Assembly (NCBI GenBank): GCA_021106995.1
Contig: JAIOTG010000079.1
Coordinates: forward strand, 1 to 16,871
Reading direction: 5' to 3'
Length of the DNA stretch: 16,871 nt
Origin: a bacterium
Lineage (GTDB): Bacteria; Patescibacteriota; Patescibacteriia; Patescibacteriales; JAGXOH01
Position numbers and translations under genes: made by a program. This document shows, in pieces, positions 908 to 10,393 of this stretch. Within the stretch, counting starts at the first letter, position 1, and each line of letters opens with the position of its first letter. The notes under the pieces were generated by a model. The model was given only the letters and a program-made list of their open reading frames with translations, did not search any database and had not been told where the DNA came from.

Positions 908-2170
908 ATGTCTAAAAATTATAATAATTGTTTAAGTCAGCTTAGAAAAATTAAAAACATTATTCAATTAAAGGGCAAGAATAGTCGAGACAGAGAAGCT
1001 GTTTATGAAGAGATGGAAGTTTTGGAAAAACCTCAGAAAATTATTCAAGTTTCTCTTCCGGTTAGAATGGATGATGGCACGCTTAAAGTTTTTGAAGGCA
1101 TCAGGGTCCAACATTCAGATATTAGAGGACCCTTTAAAGGTGGAATAAGGTTTCATCCTAAGGTTAATATAGACGAAGTTAAGTCTTTGGCTTTTTGGAT
1201 GACAATAAAATCAGCAGTAGTAGATATACCTTATGGAGGTGGAAAGGGAGGAATTACGGTTAACCCAAAAGAATTAAGTCAGACAGAATTAGAAAGGTTA
1301 TCACGGACTTATATTAGAAAAATGTCTAATGATATTGGGCCAGATAAAGATATTCCAGCTCCAGACGTTTACACTAATCCCCAGACAATGGCTTGGTTTA
1401 TGGATGAATATAGTAATATTAAGGGGAAAAATATTCCTGGAGTTGTAACTGGTAAACCAATTGAAATTGGAGGTTCATTAGGCCGAGATAAGGCTACGGC
1501 TCAAGGTGGTTATTTTGTTTTTGAAAATATAAAAAAGAAAATAAATTTAAGAGATAAAGTTGAAGTCGCCATACATGGTTTTGGTAATGCTGGTGCTAAT
1601 TTTGCTAAAATAGCCTCGGACAATGGACACAAAGTGGTGGCCATCAGCGATTCCAAAGGAACAGTTTTTAATAAAAATGGATTAAACATTAATGAACTCA
1701 TGGAGTATAAGAGGCAAAATGGTTCGGTAGTCGGATTTCCTAATTCTGAAAAAATAAAATGGGAAGAACTTTTAACTCTAAAGGTTGATCTTTTAGTTCC
1801 AGCTGCTCTAGAGGGGACTATAACCAAGGAAATAGCCTTGGGCGTTAAGGCTAAGGTTATTTTAGAACTTGCCAATGGACCAATTACCCCGGAGGCTGAT
1901 GAGATTATTGATAAAAATAATATTTTAGTAATACCTGATGTTTTAGCTAATGCGGGAGGGGTGGTTGTTTCTTACTTTGAGTGGGTGCAGAATTTGAGAA
2001 GTTATTATTGGGATGAAGAAAAAGTAAGAACACAACTTTATAATAAAATGAATAAGGCCACAGACGTTGTTTGGAGAGCCAAGGAAGAATATAAGGAAAA
2101 CATGAGAACAGCGGCCTATATAGCGGCCTTTTTAGAATTAAGCAAGAGTCTTAAGGTAAGAGGTATTTAA
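908..2170 (+). CDS. gdhA: Glutamate dehydrogenase (Glu/Leu/Phe/Val dehydrogenase family)
   Basis: This 420-residue protein has the normal length for hexameric bacterial and archaeal GDH. It would oxidatively deaminate glutamate to 2-oxoglutarate, or run in reverse to assimilate ammonia. The substrate domain shows FKGGIRFHP (K77), the catalytic-lysine motif GGGKGGI (K113) and [14 protein letters not shown] with the catalytic Asp at 153. The Rossmann domain has GFGNAG at 224-229. Asp247 lies at the end of the second strand (SDSKG), which is more typical of NAD than NADP preference; that is inference. The C-terminal block with [12 protein letters not shown] and [16 protein letters not shown] is canonical. 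The ATG at 908 follows folD by 10 nt. No terminator with a plus-strand U-tract follows; the hairpin at 2178-2196 is oriented for the opposite strand but could also stop this transcript. Confidence 0.97.
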
Positions 2171-2177
2171 TAAAAAA

Positions 2178-2196
2178 GGGATATCTAAGATATCCC
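2178..2196 (-). terminator. Intrinsic terminator of the minus-strand orphan, convergent with gdhA
   Basis: A perfect 8-bp stem, GGGATATC/GATATCCC, encloses a 3-nt loop. On the minus strand it is followed by TTTTTTATTA, a good U-tract; on the plus strand it is followed by TGAGGG. It therefore terminates the gene at 2225-2443. Confidence 0.8.
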
Positions 2197-2224
2197 TGAG
2201 GGCTGGTCGACTCTAGTTTGAGTT

Positions 2225-2443
2225 TTAAGTGTTTGATAAATCCTTGCAAAAACGAATAAATTTATCTTCCATTTGTTTCTGTTGTTGTGGTGTTCTTTTG
2301 AAATATTTACCCCTTGGCTCGGTTATAATCGTTTTTAAATAGGTTTTTAGAATCTCTTTTAATTCTTCATAATTGTTATTACTGTTATTACAGAGATGAC
2401 GATTATAAAAGTCTTCAAAAGACTCTACTTTGGCTTTTGTCAT
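2225..2443 (-). CDS. Orphan 72-residue protein in its own transcription unit
   Basis: I do not recognise this protein. It is hydrophilic and probably helical, with a basic C-terminal half (KYFKRTPQQQKQMEDKF at about 46-62), two cysteines (C18, C66) and a short Asn run (20-24); no signal peptide or membrane segment is visible. I accept it as real because it has a full set of expression signals. These are a TTGACA-17-TATAGT promoter at 2549-2577, a leader of about 100 nt, a very strong Shine-Dalgarno sequence (GGGAGGGG, 2449-2456) six bases from the ATG, and a terminator at 2178-2196. The leader can fold over the Shine-Dalgarno (separate entry), so translation may be regulated. It lies on the opposite strand between gdhA and recQ. 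Function unknown. Confidence 0.8.
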   Translation of the reverse strand: MTKAKVESFEDFYNRHLCNNSNNNYEELKEILKTYLKTIITEPRGKYFKRTPQQQKQMEDKFIRFCKDLSNT

Positions 2444-2448
2444 ATTTT

Positions 2449-2524
2449 CCCCTCCCTTTGTTAAACTTAAATACCAGCCGAAAAATCACGAAAAACCTAA
2501 TTTTTTGGCTAGCAACAAAGGAAA
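2449..2524 (-). promoter_or_regulatory. Structured 5' leader that can sequester the Shine-Dalgarno sequence
   Basis: Reading the minus-strand RNA, UUUCCUUUGUU (2524 to 2514) can pair with AACAAAGGGAG (2462 to 2452), giving 11 bp with two G-U pairs. The 3' arm covers part of the Shine-Dalgarno sequence. Inside this helix, CUAGCC (2512 to 2507) pairs with GGCUGG (2479 to 2474) with one G-U pair, and the stem continues as A5/U5 past one bulged base. The arrangement resembles a translational riboswitch, thermosensor or protein-controlled leader. It was folded by eye only. Confidence 0.5.
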
Positions 2525-2540
2525 TTTTAAAGGAAAATTT
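2517..2540. repeat. 12-nt tandem repeat at the orphan's transcription start
   Basis: AAAGGAAATTTT (2517-2528) is followed directly by AAAGGAAAATTT (2529-2540), differing at one position. It begins about 2 nt downstream of the predicted minus-strand start (about 2542). The inner copy also supplies the 5' arm of the leader helix. It could be a tandem operator or be incidental. Confidence 0.45.
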
Positions 2541-2548
2541 ATAAATAA

Positions 2549-2577
2549 ACTATATCATAAAATAAAAAATTTGTCAA
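2549..2577 (-). promoter_or_regulatory. Sigma-70-type promoter for the 2225-2443 orphan
   Basis: On the minus strand, TTGACA (2577 to 2572) is a perfect -35, followed by a 17-nt spacer and TATAGT (2554 to 2549) as -10. The predicted start is near 2542, leaving a leader of about 100 nt. Both hexamers and the spacing are identical to those of the promoter at 7152-7180. Confidence 0.8.
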
Positions 2578-2589
2578 TAATTTTAAAAA

Positions 2590-4668
2590 ATGTTTTTAAA
2601 AAAACTTCAACAAGTTAAAGAGCTTCTTAGACTTCATTACGGTTTTAATGAATTTCGGTCTGGGCAAAAAGAGGCTATAGAAAGTATTTTAAATAAAAAA
2701 GATACATTAGTAATTATGCCTACAGGTGGTGGTAAATCATTAATTTATCAGTTGTCTGCTTTAGTTTTAGAAGGAGTTACTATTGTGGTGTCTCCTCTTA
2801 TTGCTTTAATGAAAGATCAGGTTGATACTTTAAATTCAGTTGGTATTCCAGCCACTTTTATTAATTCTTCAATATCTTTTAAGGAGGTTCAAGAAAGAAT
2901 TGAAAGAGTTCAGAGCGGTTTTTATAAAATTTTATATGTAGCACCAGAGAGATTTAATAGTCAGGATTTTTTAAGTGTTTTAAAGAATGTAAAAGTGGAT
3001 CTTTTTGCTGTAGATGAAGCCCATTGTATTAGTGAATGGGGTCATGATTTTAGACCTAGTTATACTAGATTAAACAAAGTTGTTGAATTTTTAAATAATC
3101 CTATGGTTGTGGCTCTAACTGCCACAGCTACTCCGGAAGTTAAAGAAGATATTGGAAAACAATTAAAACTAAAAAGTCCTAAAATTATCGTAACCGGTTT
3201 TAAAAGGCCTAATTTACAACTAGGGGTTCTTAGGGGAAATGATTATCAGAAATTACAAGCCGTTTTAAACACTATAAAAAGTATGCCCGAGTCCAGGGGT
3301 ATTGTTTATGTTAACACCAGGGCTAAGGCTGATGAAATAATGCAAGCGCTTTTAAATGAAGATTTTAAAGCGGCCTCTTATCATGCTGGTATGGATCAGG
3401 AAGACAGGAAGTGGGTTCAGGATAGTTTTATGAAAGATAAGGTAGAAATAGTTGTTGCTACCAATGCTTTTGGTTTAGGAATAGATAAAAAAAATATTAG
3501 ATTTGTTATTCATTATAATATGCCCGGAACGGTTGAGGCTTATTATCAGGAAGCTGGTAGAGCTGGCAGGGATGGTAAAAGTAGTTTCTGTCTCTTGCTT
3601 TTTTCTCCCAGAGACCGTTACTTGCAGGAGTTTTTTATACAAGGAGACAATCCTGAAGGAGAAACAATTTTAGAAATATACGAACTTTTATTAAATTATG
3701 ACGATGATAGAATTATGTTCACTTATAGTGAAATTTGCCAATCTTTAAACGGCAATGTTCCTGAGATGGCAGTGGGGGCAGCCTTAAAAATATTGGAAAG
3801 TAACGGCTTAATAAGGAGAAGTCATGAAAAGGCAGGGAACGCTTATTTTAAAATTTTAACTGATTTTAATAAAGCCTTAGGAAAACTTGGTCCTAAAGCA
3901 AAAAAACAAAGAAATACTTTCGAAGCTTTTTATAGGAAATATGAAGAAGAATTAAAAAAAGGAGGTTACTTTAATTTAGAAGAGGTCTCCGAGCTTGTCG
4001 GAGTGAAAAGGGAAACATTAAAAAGAATGTCTAAATCGTTAGCCGACAAAGGCGTTTTAGAATATAAACCTCCTTTTAGGGGTACGGAGATAAAGGTTCT
4101 AAAAAGAGTTGAGAGAGATGAGTTAGAGTTAGACTTTAAAGTTCTAAGAGAAAAAGCCGACAAAGCTTATAAAAAATTAAATAAAATAGAAAATTATGTT
4201 TACTATTCTGGGTGTAGGCAGGAATATATTCTTAATTATTTTGGAGACATAGATTCTCAGGTTTGTGGAAAATGTGATAATTGTTTAACAACTAGTGATG
4301 TCCGTATTTATGAAGAGGAGCCTAAAAGAAAAAAGAAAACTGGAATAAAGTTGAATACAAAATTAACCCAGCTGGAAACTTATGAATTATATAATAAGGA
4401 CATGAGTATTTCTGAAATTGCTAAAAAAAGAGAAATAAAAGAAAACACGGTTTTTGAGCATCTGAGTTATTTGGTAGAGAAGGGATTGATAACAAATATA
4501 GATAATTTTGTAGATAAAAAAAATCAAGCTGAAATTAAAAAGGCGATTAAAAAAATAGACTCCGACAAACTAAAGCCCGTCTTTGAAGAATTAAAAGAAA
4601 AAATTTCTTACAATGATATAAAAATGGTTATAGCAAAAGAAAAAAATAATAATAAAAAAAATGGATAG
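2590..4668 (+). CDS. recQ: RecQ family ATP-dependent DNA helicase
   Basis: This 692-residue 3'-5' superfamily 2 helicase acts in recombination and replication-fork repair. In order it shows the RecQ motif 0 (EFRSGQKEAI, 21-30), Walker A TGGGKS (45-50, K49), SPLIALMKDQV, DEAH at 142-145 followed by CISEWGHDFRP, TATATP, and motif VI QEAGRAGRDG (320-329). The RQC zinc site has cysteines 542, 559, 562 and 565. Instead of an HRDC domain, the C-terminus (about 590-680) carries a helix-turn-helix module of the kind found at the end of many bacterial RecQs, with SISEIAKKREIKENTVFEHL. This makes it longer than the E. coli protein (about 610). The ATG at 2590 precedes the conserved N-terminus by a few residues; no Shine-Dalgarno is present. 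Its TAG overlaps the next gene by 8 nt. Confidence 0.97.
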   Translation: MFLKKLQQVKELLRLHYGFNEFRSGQKEAIESILNKKDTLVIMPTGGGKSLIYQLSALVLEGVTIVVSPLIALMKDQVDTLNSVGIPATFINSSISFKEVQERIERVQSGFYKILYVAPERFNSQDFLSVLKNVKVDLFAVDEAHCISEWGHDFRPSYTRLNKVVEFLNNPMVVALTATATPEVKEDIGKQLKLKSPKIIVTGFKRPNLQLGVLRGNDYQKLQAVLNTIKSMPESRGIVYVNTRAKADEIMQALLNEDFKAASYHAGMDQEDRKWVQDSFMKDKVEIVVATNAFGLGIDKKNIRFVIHYNMPGTVEAYYQEAGRAGRDGKSSFCLLLFSPRDRYLQEFFIQGDNPEGETILEIYELLLNYDDDRIMFTYSEICQSLNGNVPEMAVGAALKILESNGLIRRSHEKAGNAYFKILTDFNKALGKLGPKAKKQRNTFEAFYRKYEEELKKGGYFNLEEVSELVGVKRETLKRMSKSLADKGVLEYKPPFRGTEIKVLKRVERDELELDFKVLREKADKAYKKLNKIENYVYYSGCRQEYILNYFGDIDSQVCGKCDNCLTTSDVRIYEEEPKRKKKTGIKLNTKLTQLETYELYNKDMSISEIAKKREIKENTVFEHLSYLVEKGLITNIDNFVDKKNQAEIKKAIKKIDSDKLKPVFEELKEKISYNDIKMVIAKEKNNNKKNG

Positions 4669-5366: not shown

Positions 5367-6146
5367 ATGATCAAAGAATTAATTGTTCCCGTGATAACTC
5401 CTGTGAAAGATTCGCGGGTCGATATAGAGAGTTTTAAAAATTTAATCAATTTTTTGATCAACAATCGTGTTGATTCAATTTTTGTTTTAGGCGCAACAGG
5501 GGAATTTCTTAAATTATCTTTAAAAGAAAAAAGAGAAATTATTAATATTTGTACTTCTTTTGTTGATAGAAGTTCTTTTTTAATTGGTGTTTCTGCAAAT
5601 ACATTAAAAGAAACTAGGGAATTGATCGATGCTTCTAATAATTTAAAGCCTTCCGCGATTGTTTTAACGCCGATGGTCGGTCAAGGTGAGGTTGTTGAAA
5701 AAATAGAATTAGCTTTGAAATATTCTATTTTACCCATAATTTTATATAACAATCCAGCAATACAAAATAATATTAATTTAGATTTAAGTATTATTAATAA
5801 ATATGCTGTTAACTCTAAAATAATTGGCATAAAGGATAGTTCTTCTAATGAAGATTATAATGATCAACTTATAAAAATTTCACCAGATAGTTTTAAGTTT
5901 TTTCAGGGCAGTGAGTCCCAATTTATTAATTTTCCCAATAAAGAGATTTCAGGATTGGTGGCAAGCAGTGCTAATGTTTATCCTGCTGAATTTAAAAATT
6001 TTATTAAAAGTTCGAACAATAAAAGTTCTGACAAAATAAGAAATTTGAAAAACGATATTAAAAAAATTTCTCCAAACTCTATTTTTAATATAAAGACACT
6101 GTTAAAGGAAATGTGTATTATTGAATCAAATGAAATTTATGAATAA
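5367..6146 (+). CDS. DapA/NanA-superfamily class I aldolase or lyase
   Basis: This 259-residue TIM-barrel protein belongs to the dihydrodipicolinate synthase / N-acetylneuraminate lyase superfamily. It shows VITPV near the N-terminus, the pyruvate-binding GATGE loop (42-46), the catalytic Tyr in LYNNP (Y127) and the Schiff-base Lys in GIKDSS (K156). Members condense or cleave pyruvate with an aldehyde. At 259 residues it is shorter than the usual 290-300, and the missing part falls in the C-terminal helices. No other lysine or sialic-acid genes are nearby, so the substrate cannot be assigned, and calling it dapA would overreach. It starts 10 nt after the methyltransferase and ends in an 8-nt overlap with the next gene (ATGAATAA). 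Confidence 0.85.
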   Translation: MIKELIVPVITPVKDSRVDIESFKNLINFLINNRVDSIFVLGATGEFLKLSLKEKREIINICTSFVDRSSFLIGVSANTLKETRELIDASNNLKPSAIVLTPMVGQGEVVEKIELALKYSILPIILYNNPAIQNNINLDLSIINKYAVNSKIIGIKDSSSNEDYNDQLIKISPDSFKFFQGSESQFINFPNKEISGLVASSANVYPAEFKNFIKSSNNKSSDKIRNLKNDIKKISPNSIFNIKTLLKEMCIIESNEIYE

Positions 6147-10174: not shown

Positions 10175-10393
10175 ATGAGAATTAAAAAGGAGGCAAGCGT
10201 TGCAAGTTTGGGCAAGGTTCAGTTAATAGAGTTTTTACAAGAAGGAAACTGTCTTTCTTGTAATAAAAGTGTTTTAACAAAAGCGTGGATTAAAACATGT
10301 GAGTTAGGGGGATGTTGTTGTGAAGATTGCTTTCTCAATAAAAGGGTTGTTAAGGCATTAGAAAAACTATCTCTTAATGTTTCAATGGCATAA
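10175..10393 (+). CDS. Cys-rich 72-residue orphan, probable metal-binding protein
   Basis: I do not recognise a family. Seven of 72 residues are cysteine (C26, C29, C42, C47, C48, C49, C52), arranged as CLSC, then C-x4-CCC-x2-C, which suggests a small zinc-binding or redox domain of about 27 residues. Around it, the N-terminus is basic (MRIKKEAS) and the C-terminus is a short amphipathic helix (RVVKALEKLSL). The ATG at 10175 has a near-perfect Shine-Dalgarno sequence (AAGGAGGGG, 10164-10171 and on) with four bases before the ATG, in strong contrast to its neighbours. It starts 13 nt after ppaC and is followed by a hairpin at 10401-10422, so it is the last gene of the nusA-ppaC unit. A nucleic-acid-binding or ribosome-associated role is conceivable but unsupported. 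Confidence 0.82.
   Translation: MRIKKEASVASLGKVQLIEFLQEGNCLSCNKSVLTKAWIKTCELGGCCCEDCFLNKRVVKALEKLSLNVSMA

Follow-up and report, generated by a model that had tools for sequence, protein, structure and literature searches.

A predicted leader hairpin that buries the Shine-Dalgarno sequence of a lineage-specific small gene in a patescibacterium

In translational riboswitches, the Shine-Dalgarno (SD) sequence is sequestered by an expression platform and lies in an outer helix around another domain. In the FourU and ROSE RNA thermometers, the SD lies in a U-rich helix. The leader described here shares both features, with its SD in a U-rich outer helix that encloses a second domain. Unlike translational riboswitches, it has no aptamer, known family, alternative fold or Rfam match, and unlike the FourU and ROSE thermometers it is far too stable by prediction. 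By analogy, the nearest described system is the type I toxin mRNA aapA3 of Helicobacter pylori, which carries SD-sequestering hairpins (PMC6733600); the likeness is one of mechanism and not of membership. As in aapA3, an anti-SD close to the 5' end of the mRNA of a small gene would conceal the SD, both while the mRNA is being made and afterwards. Unlike aapA3, the orphan leader is one stable local hairpin with a hydrophilic 72-aa product, and no antisense RNA or homologue was seen for the orphan unit. Type I toxins are small and hydrophobic, and the orphan product, hydrophilic by eye, does not fit that description. The orphan leader does conform to the general description of an SD-sequestering leader, in which the SD is paired in a stable leader fold (unpaired probability 0.007 at 37 °C).

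The window is the whole stretch of DNA analysed, 16,871 nucleotides from a genome assembly of 799 kb in 130 contigs. The small size of the genome and the presence of named Patescibacteria, next to many other phyla, among the relatives of its recQ point to a patescibacterial source. The orphan unit lies on its minus strand between gdhA and the divergent recQ (Table 1). The consensus promoter, start-site tandem repeat and terminator named in an earlier sequence-only reading are all present. From the position of the promoter, the transcript is predicted to start near 2542, which puts the 5' arm of the hairpin inside the transcript. On the plus strand, where the promoter of an antisense RNA would lie, promoter-like sites scoring 9/12 occur at 2233 and 2346, with three sites in total against a chance expectation of 2.0. 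We propose, with a probability of roughly one half, that the leader controls the translation of a lineage-specific small gene and keeps it off by default. This proposal is based on the sequence parts, the predicted fold and the rank of the leader among sampled leaders.

Table 1. Positions of features in and around the orphan unit and of other small ORFs with a strong SD
Feature	Position	Strand	Description or basis
gdhA	908-2170		ELFV dehydrogenase; Pfam
Intrinsic terminator of orphan unit	2197-2177	minus	9-pair stem and T run
Orphan ORF, 72 aa	2443-2225	minus	
Shine-Dalgarno GGGAGGGG	2449-2456	minus	sequence; within 3' arms of P1 and P2
Leader, ~99 nt	~2542 to ATG at 2443	minus	from predicted start
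Promoter	2577-2549	minus	TTGACA-17-TATAGT, TG before -10; consensus scan 11/12
Tandem 12-nt pyrimidine-rich copies	2517-2528 / 2529-2540	minus	direct repeat, 92% identity
P1, outer helix	5' arm 2531-2538, partner 2444-2451	minus	MFE fold
P2	5' arm 2515-2524, partner 2452-2461	minus	MFE fold; perfect 8-bp core
Inner stem-loop	2472-2514	minus	MFE fold; P3 and P4
P3	2507-2514 with 2472-2479	minus	MFE fold
P4	2498-2505 with 2481-2488	minus	MFE fold
recQ	2590-4668		divergent from orphan unit; Pfam
Small ORF with strong SD	window 10175-10393		
Small ORF with strong SD	L157 499-660		
Small ORF with strong SD	L162 1142-1279		
Small ORF with strong SD	L170 3333-3650		

The minimum free energy (MFE) fold of the leader is a single long irregular hairpin of four helices (8, 10, 8 and 8 bp) with one-sided bulges of 6 nt and 10 nt. 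The two 12-nt copies supply most of the 5' (anti-SD) arms, and a perfect 8-bp inverted repeat, CCTTTGTT/AACAAAGG, lies at 2455-2462 and 2514-2521. The inner helices (8 + 8 bp, plus a lone pair) form a stem-loop of -18.0 kcal/mol by itself. The sequence-only reading had described an 11-bp helix around a stem-loop of 6 + 5 bp. Both elements exist, and their sizes were understated. It had also made the 3' arm part of the SD; the SD does lie in the 3' strand, and the 3' strand of the outer helices (8 + 10 bp) holds all of it.

Folding of the leader, a check proposed with that reading, gives for 2542-2430 (minus strand) this slightly larger hairpin at -34.2 kcal/mol, compared with -20.0 (sd 3.11) for shuffled sequences (z -4.57; 0 of 200 as stable). 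For 2577-2444 (minus strand), z is -3.88 and again none of 200 shuffles is as stable. The plus strand of 2444-2542 folds at -18.6 kcal/mol (z -3.06; 2 of 200 shuffles as stable). Segments of 113 nt that are at least as stable number 32 of 5832, at 22 separate places, in the 124-kb sample. Among segments with a GC content of 0.345 or less there are 5 of 3938, the leader included; by eye, three of the other four contain terminator-like stems (contigs L163, L167 and L171), and the fourth is in L162. The whole fold is well beyond chance under the folding model. In L162, a long hairpin (6041-6110) immediately precedes the SD of a 336-aa ORF whose start resembles a signal peptide and which has no match in Pfam.

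The SD is fully paired in the predicted fold. Its opening costs 13.65 kcal/mol, and the SD-free fold lies 13.9 kcal/mol above the MFE. The leader sample comprises the window and 20 of the 130 contigs (124,302 bases). The orphan leader ranks first in cost among the 23 SD-bearing leaders scored there (next 6.61), a ranking whose choice of start codons favours SDs and which leaves out two of 25 SD-bearing ORFs for lack of flanks. With a wider footprint (-18 to +12) it is again first by a narrow margin (14.21; next 13.27), and in a set of 16 GGAGG motifs, each ahead of an ORF of at least 30 aa, it is first at 13.77 (next 8.99). The SD of the strong-SD small ORF elsewhere in the window (Table 1) is open, with a cost of 0.44.

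The predicted unpaired fraction of the SD is 0.7% at 37 °C, 1.5% at 50 °C and 4.3% at 60 °C. These values run against the temperature switching that the sequence-only reading had suggested. The SD does pair with a U-rich strand, like that of simple thermometers, but with so little predicted melting even at 60 °C an RNA thermometer is the least probable explanation considered. Translation attenuation by an upstream ORF is scarcely more probable. A 24-codon GTG frame is visible by eye in the sequence; it begins at 2489, crosses the SD and continues beyond the ATG. However, AGG is the sole SD-like sequence before it, and ribosomes on this frame would cover the SD.

The burial depends on where the transcript starts. 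With a start anywhere from 2577 to 2538, the cost is 12.25-13.93 kcal/mol. A start at 2534-2524 lowers it to 8-10, with 8.12 at 2528, where one 12-nt copy is left; in the series tested, starts at 2520 or later give 2.9 or less. In folds of successively longer prefixes, most of the inner stem is present by nt 69 and the SD is captured by nt 93-101. The prefix folds contain no competing fold and no other partner for the 5' arm.

A metabolite riboswitch or protein-binding autoregulatory leader, in which a ligand on the inner stem-loop or bulges frees the SD, would have the place and layout seen here, as translational riboswitches also set the SD in an outer helix with a separate inner domain. The leader itself gives this explanation little room. 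No Rfam family matches it at the gathering score (best permissive E 0.11, far below the family cut-off), the fold has no junction and no multi-branched aptamer-like domain, the opening gap is about 14 kcal/mol with no alternative 5'-arm partner in the prefix folds, and no relatives were found. We consider such a ligand- or protein-operated leader unlikely, and the riboswitch-like switching of the sequence-only reading found no backing in a family, an aptamer-like domain or a competing fold.

The default-off proposal would work as follows. A leader of about 99 nt would be transcribed from the consensus promoter, and the inner stem-loop would form first. The tandem pyrimidine copies, both at the 5' end, would then pair with the emerging SD and bury it. 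The 72-aa protein would be made only at a low level, or once the 5' arm had been opened or removed; candidate openers are cleavage, a protein, a small RNA or a helicase. In this scheme we infer where transcription starts, that the RNA folds this way in the cell, that translation is repressed, and any signal for opening.

With the SD and coding start left unchanged, burial at least as strong is reached by 24 of 1063 dinucleotide-shuffled leaders (2.3%) and by 28 of 974 84-mers drawn at random from the genome (2.9%). A G-rich SD pairs easily. By this modelling, SD burial alone is only modestly beyond chance (p ~0.02-0.03). The hairpin may be incidental: the ORF would be young and lineage-specific, its G-rich SD would pair strongly by chance within a leader rich in AT and pyrimidines, and selection for regulation would have played no part. 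These fixed-SD controls fit that account, as does the fact that gene and leader occur in no other genome searched, and the 12-nt tandem duplication could come from slippage. However, chance pairing of the SD leaves aside the whole-fold z of -4.57 (0 of 200), the -18.0 kcal/mol inner stem that exists besides the SD pairing, the first place among 23 leaders and the predicted start that just takes in the 5' arm. We regard an incidental structure as less likely than not, yet as a serious rival and the main one.

A search with the leader and gene by blastn gave matches in at least 126 of 145 genomes (own included); the listed matches are weak, and most of them lie in the query's AT-rich promoter region. 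The core element matches in 40 of 140 genomes (own included) and once in its own genome. Inspection covered 24 matched loci, the window itself among them, with 6 short loci left out. Many of the inspected core matches are coding DNA by eye, in which the string reads Ala-Lys-Lys-Leu-Gly. Two matches lie between ORFs, in genomes G122 (32/36) and G076 (27/31). The G122 match folds as a different, weaker stem. The G076 match (L123, 490-535) is an intergenic stem-loop like the inner stem, downstream of an opposite-strand ORF. It was rejected as a homologue, as it lacks both an SD helix and the context of a start codon, and its sequence is probably a terminator-like chance likeness.

A one-sequence covariance model run on 140 genomes recovered itself and one match at E 0.048; judged by eye, the latter is a terminator-like hairpin that lies between two ORFs. 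The searches of 145, 140 and 140 genomes (own included) thus gave no credible homologous leader, where the covariance model and the stricter filters could miss distant relatives. As no credible homologue of leader or protein came out of the searches, nothing points to the pairing being under selection, which counts against the default-off proposal.

Given its promoter, SD and terminator, the orphan ORF is probably a gene. Its codon score (0.014 bits per codon) is above 24 of 25 hand-picked decoy ORFs and below 15 of 16 window genes, an ambiguous value that supports coding status weakly. The translation is charged and hydrophilic by eye. Among 5.8 billion proteins searched, it matched itself alone, and in 145 genomes (own included) the single match is again itself. 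In 379 genomes of the phylum (own included) there are matches in four; the other three are weak (E 9e-4 to 7e-3) and were judged to be chance, as they fall within larger frames of 258-511 aa. No homologue was confirmed in viral contigs (phages E 0.9 at best), and Pfam, NCBIfam and PHROGs gave nothing better than E 0.012. At the DNA level there is no match in plasmids and a single 30-base match in phages (E 9e-3). AlphaFold without an alignment predicts three helices for residues 2-72 (pLDDT 61), and a fold search of the PDB gave a best E of 7.6.

The orphan lies in a variable slot (window 2170-2590) of a partly conserved block, as judged from the gdhA-recQ loci of relatives. Of 60 genomes (own included), 54 have recQ and 37 have gdhA. 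In G030 the two genes are neighbours separated by 133 nt, the orphan is absent, and recQ is followed by an ORF resembling, by eye, the methyltransferase of the window. The slot in G035 is filled by a minus-strand ORF that has a dihydroorotate dehydrogenase domain, and that in G007 by two long ORFs, one with this domain. Where other listed genomes have both genes on one contig, the two are farther apart or reordered. The sole other same-family genome among the 145 (G001) has neither gene at the thresholds used. No remnant of the orphan is visible in the relatives' loci examined (best tblastn E 1.4).

In the window and contigs L155-L174, an SD-like sequence precedes 4 of 86 ORFs of at least 120 aa when first-ATG starts are taken, which may be wrong for some ORFs. 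With an SD-favouring choice of start, 11 of 75 ORFs of at least 150 aa have an SD. Of 30 recQ ORFs from this genome and its relatives, two are preceded by an SD-like sequence. The 16S genes of relatives end in ACCTCCTTTCT in 18 of 20 cases, so that the anti-SD CCTCCTTTCT is kept in these; the other two have no match to the pattern. No 16S gene of the genome itself was found in its assembly. Since SDs are few although relatives keep the anti-SD, a strong SD is unusual here and its burial more striking than it would be elsewhere.

Several starts closely follow a TATAAT-like box, with an only mildly peaked position profile, and their mRNAs may be leaderless. Strong SDs containing AAAGGAGG occur at small ORFs (45-105 aa; Table 1), with opening costs of 0.44-5.72, and in this genome the use of an SD may be associated with small genes. 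A broader conjecture, which we consider very unlikely, is that small accessory genes are controlled through a strong SD as a handle in a clade that has largely abandoned SD-led initiation but kept the 16S anti-SD. Here the duplicated 12-nt anti-SD arm would hide the SD, and gain or loss of a copy by slippage could tune translation (8.1 vs 13.65 kcal/mol).

The listed titles and abstract beginnings of literature on SD use, leaderless mRNAs, riboswitches and SD-sequestering leaders in Patescibacteria, Parcubacteria and CPR contain no account of the orphan leader. In the review PMC11665869, the riboswitch passage concerns engineering tools; translation regulation is expected to be key in Patescibacteria, and mechanisms of differentiation are called completely unknown. 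The sequence-only reading is supported in silico in so far as it describes an orphan ORF that has a promoter and a terminator of its own and a leader that hides its SD. SD-hiding hairpins are an already known kind of control. If the default-off reading is true, the orphan leader would be a case in Patescibacteria of a lineage-specific gene controlled at the RNA level.
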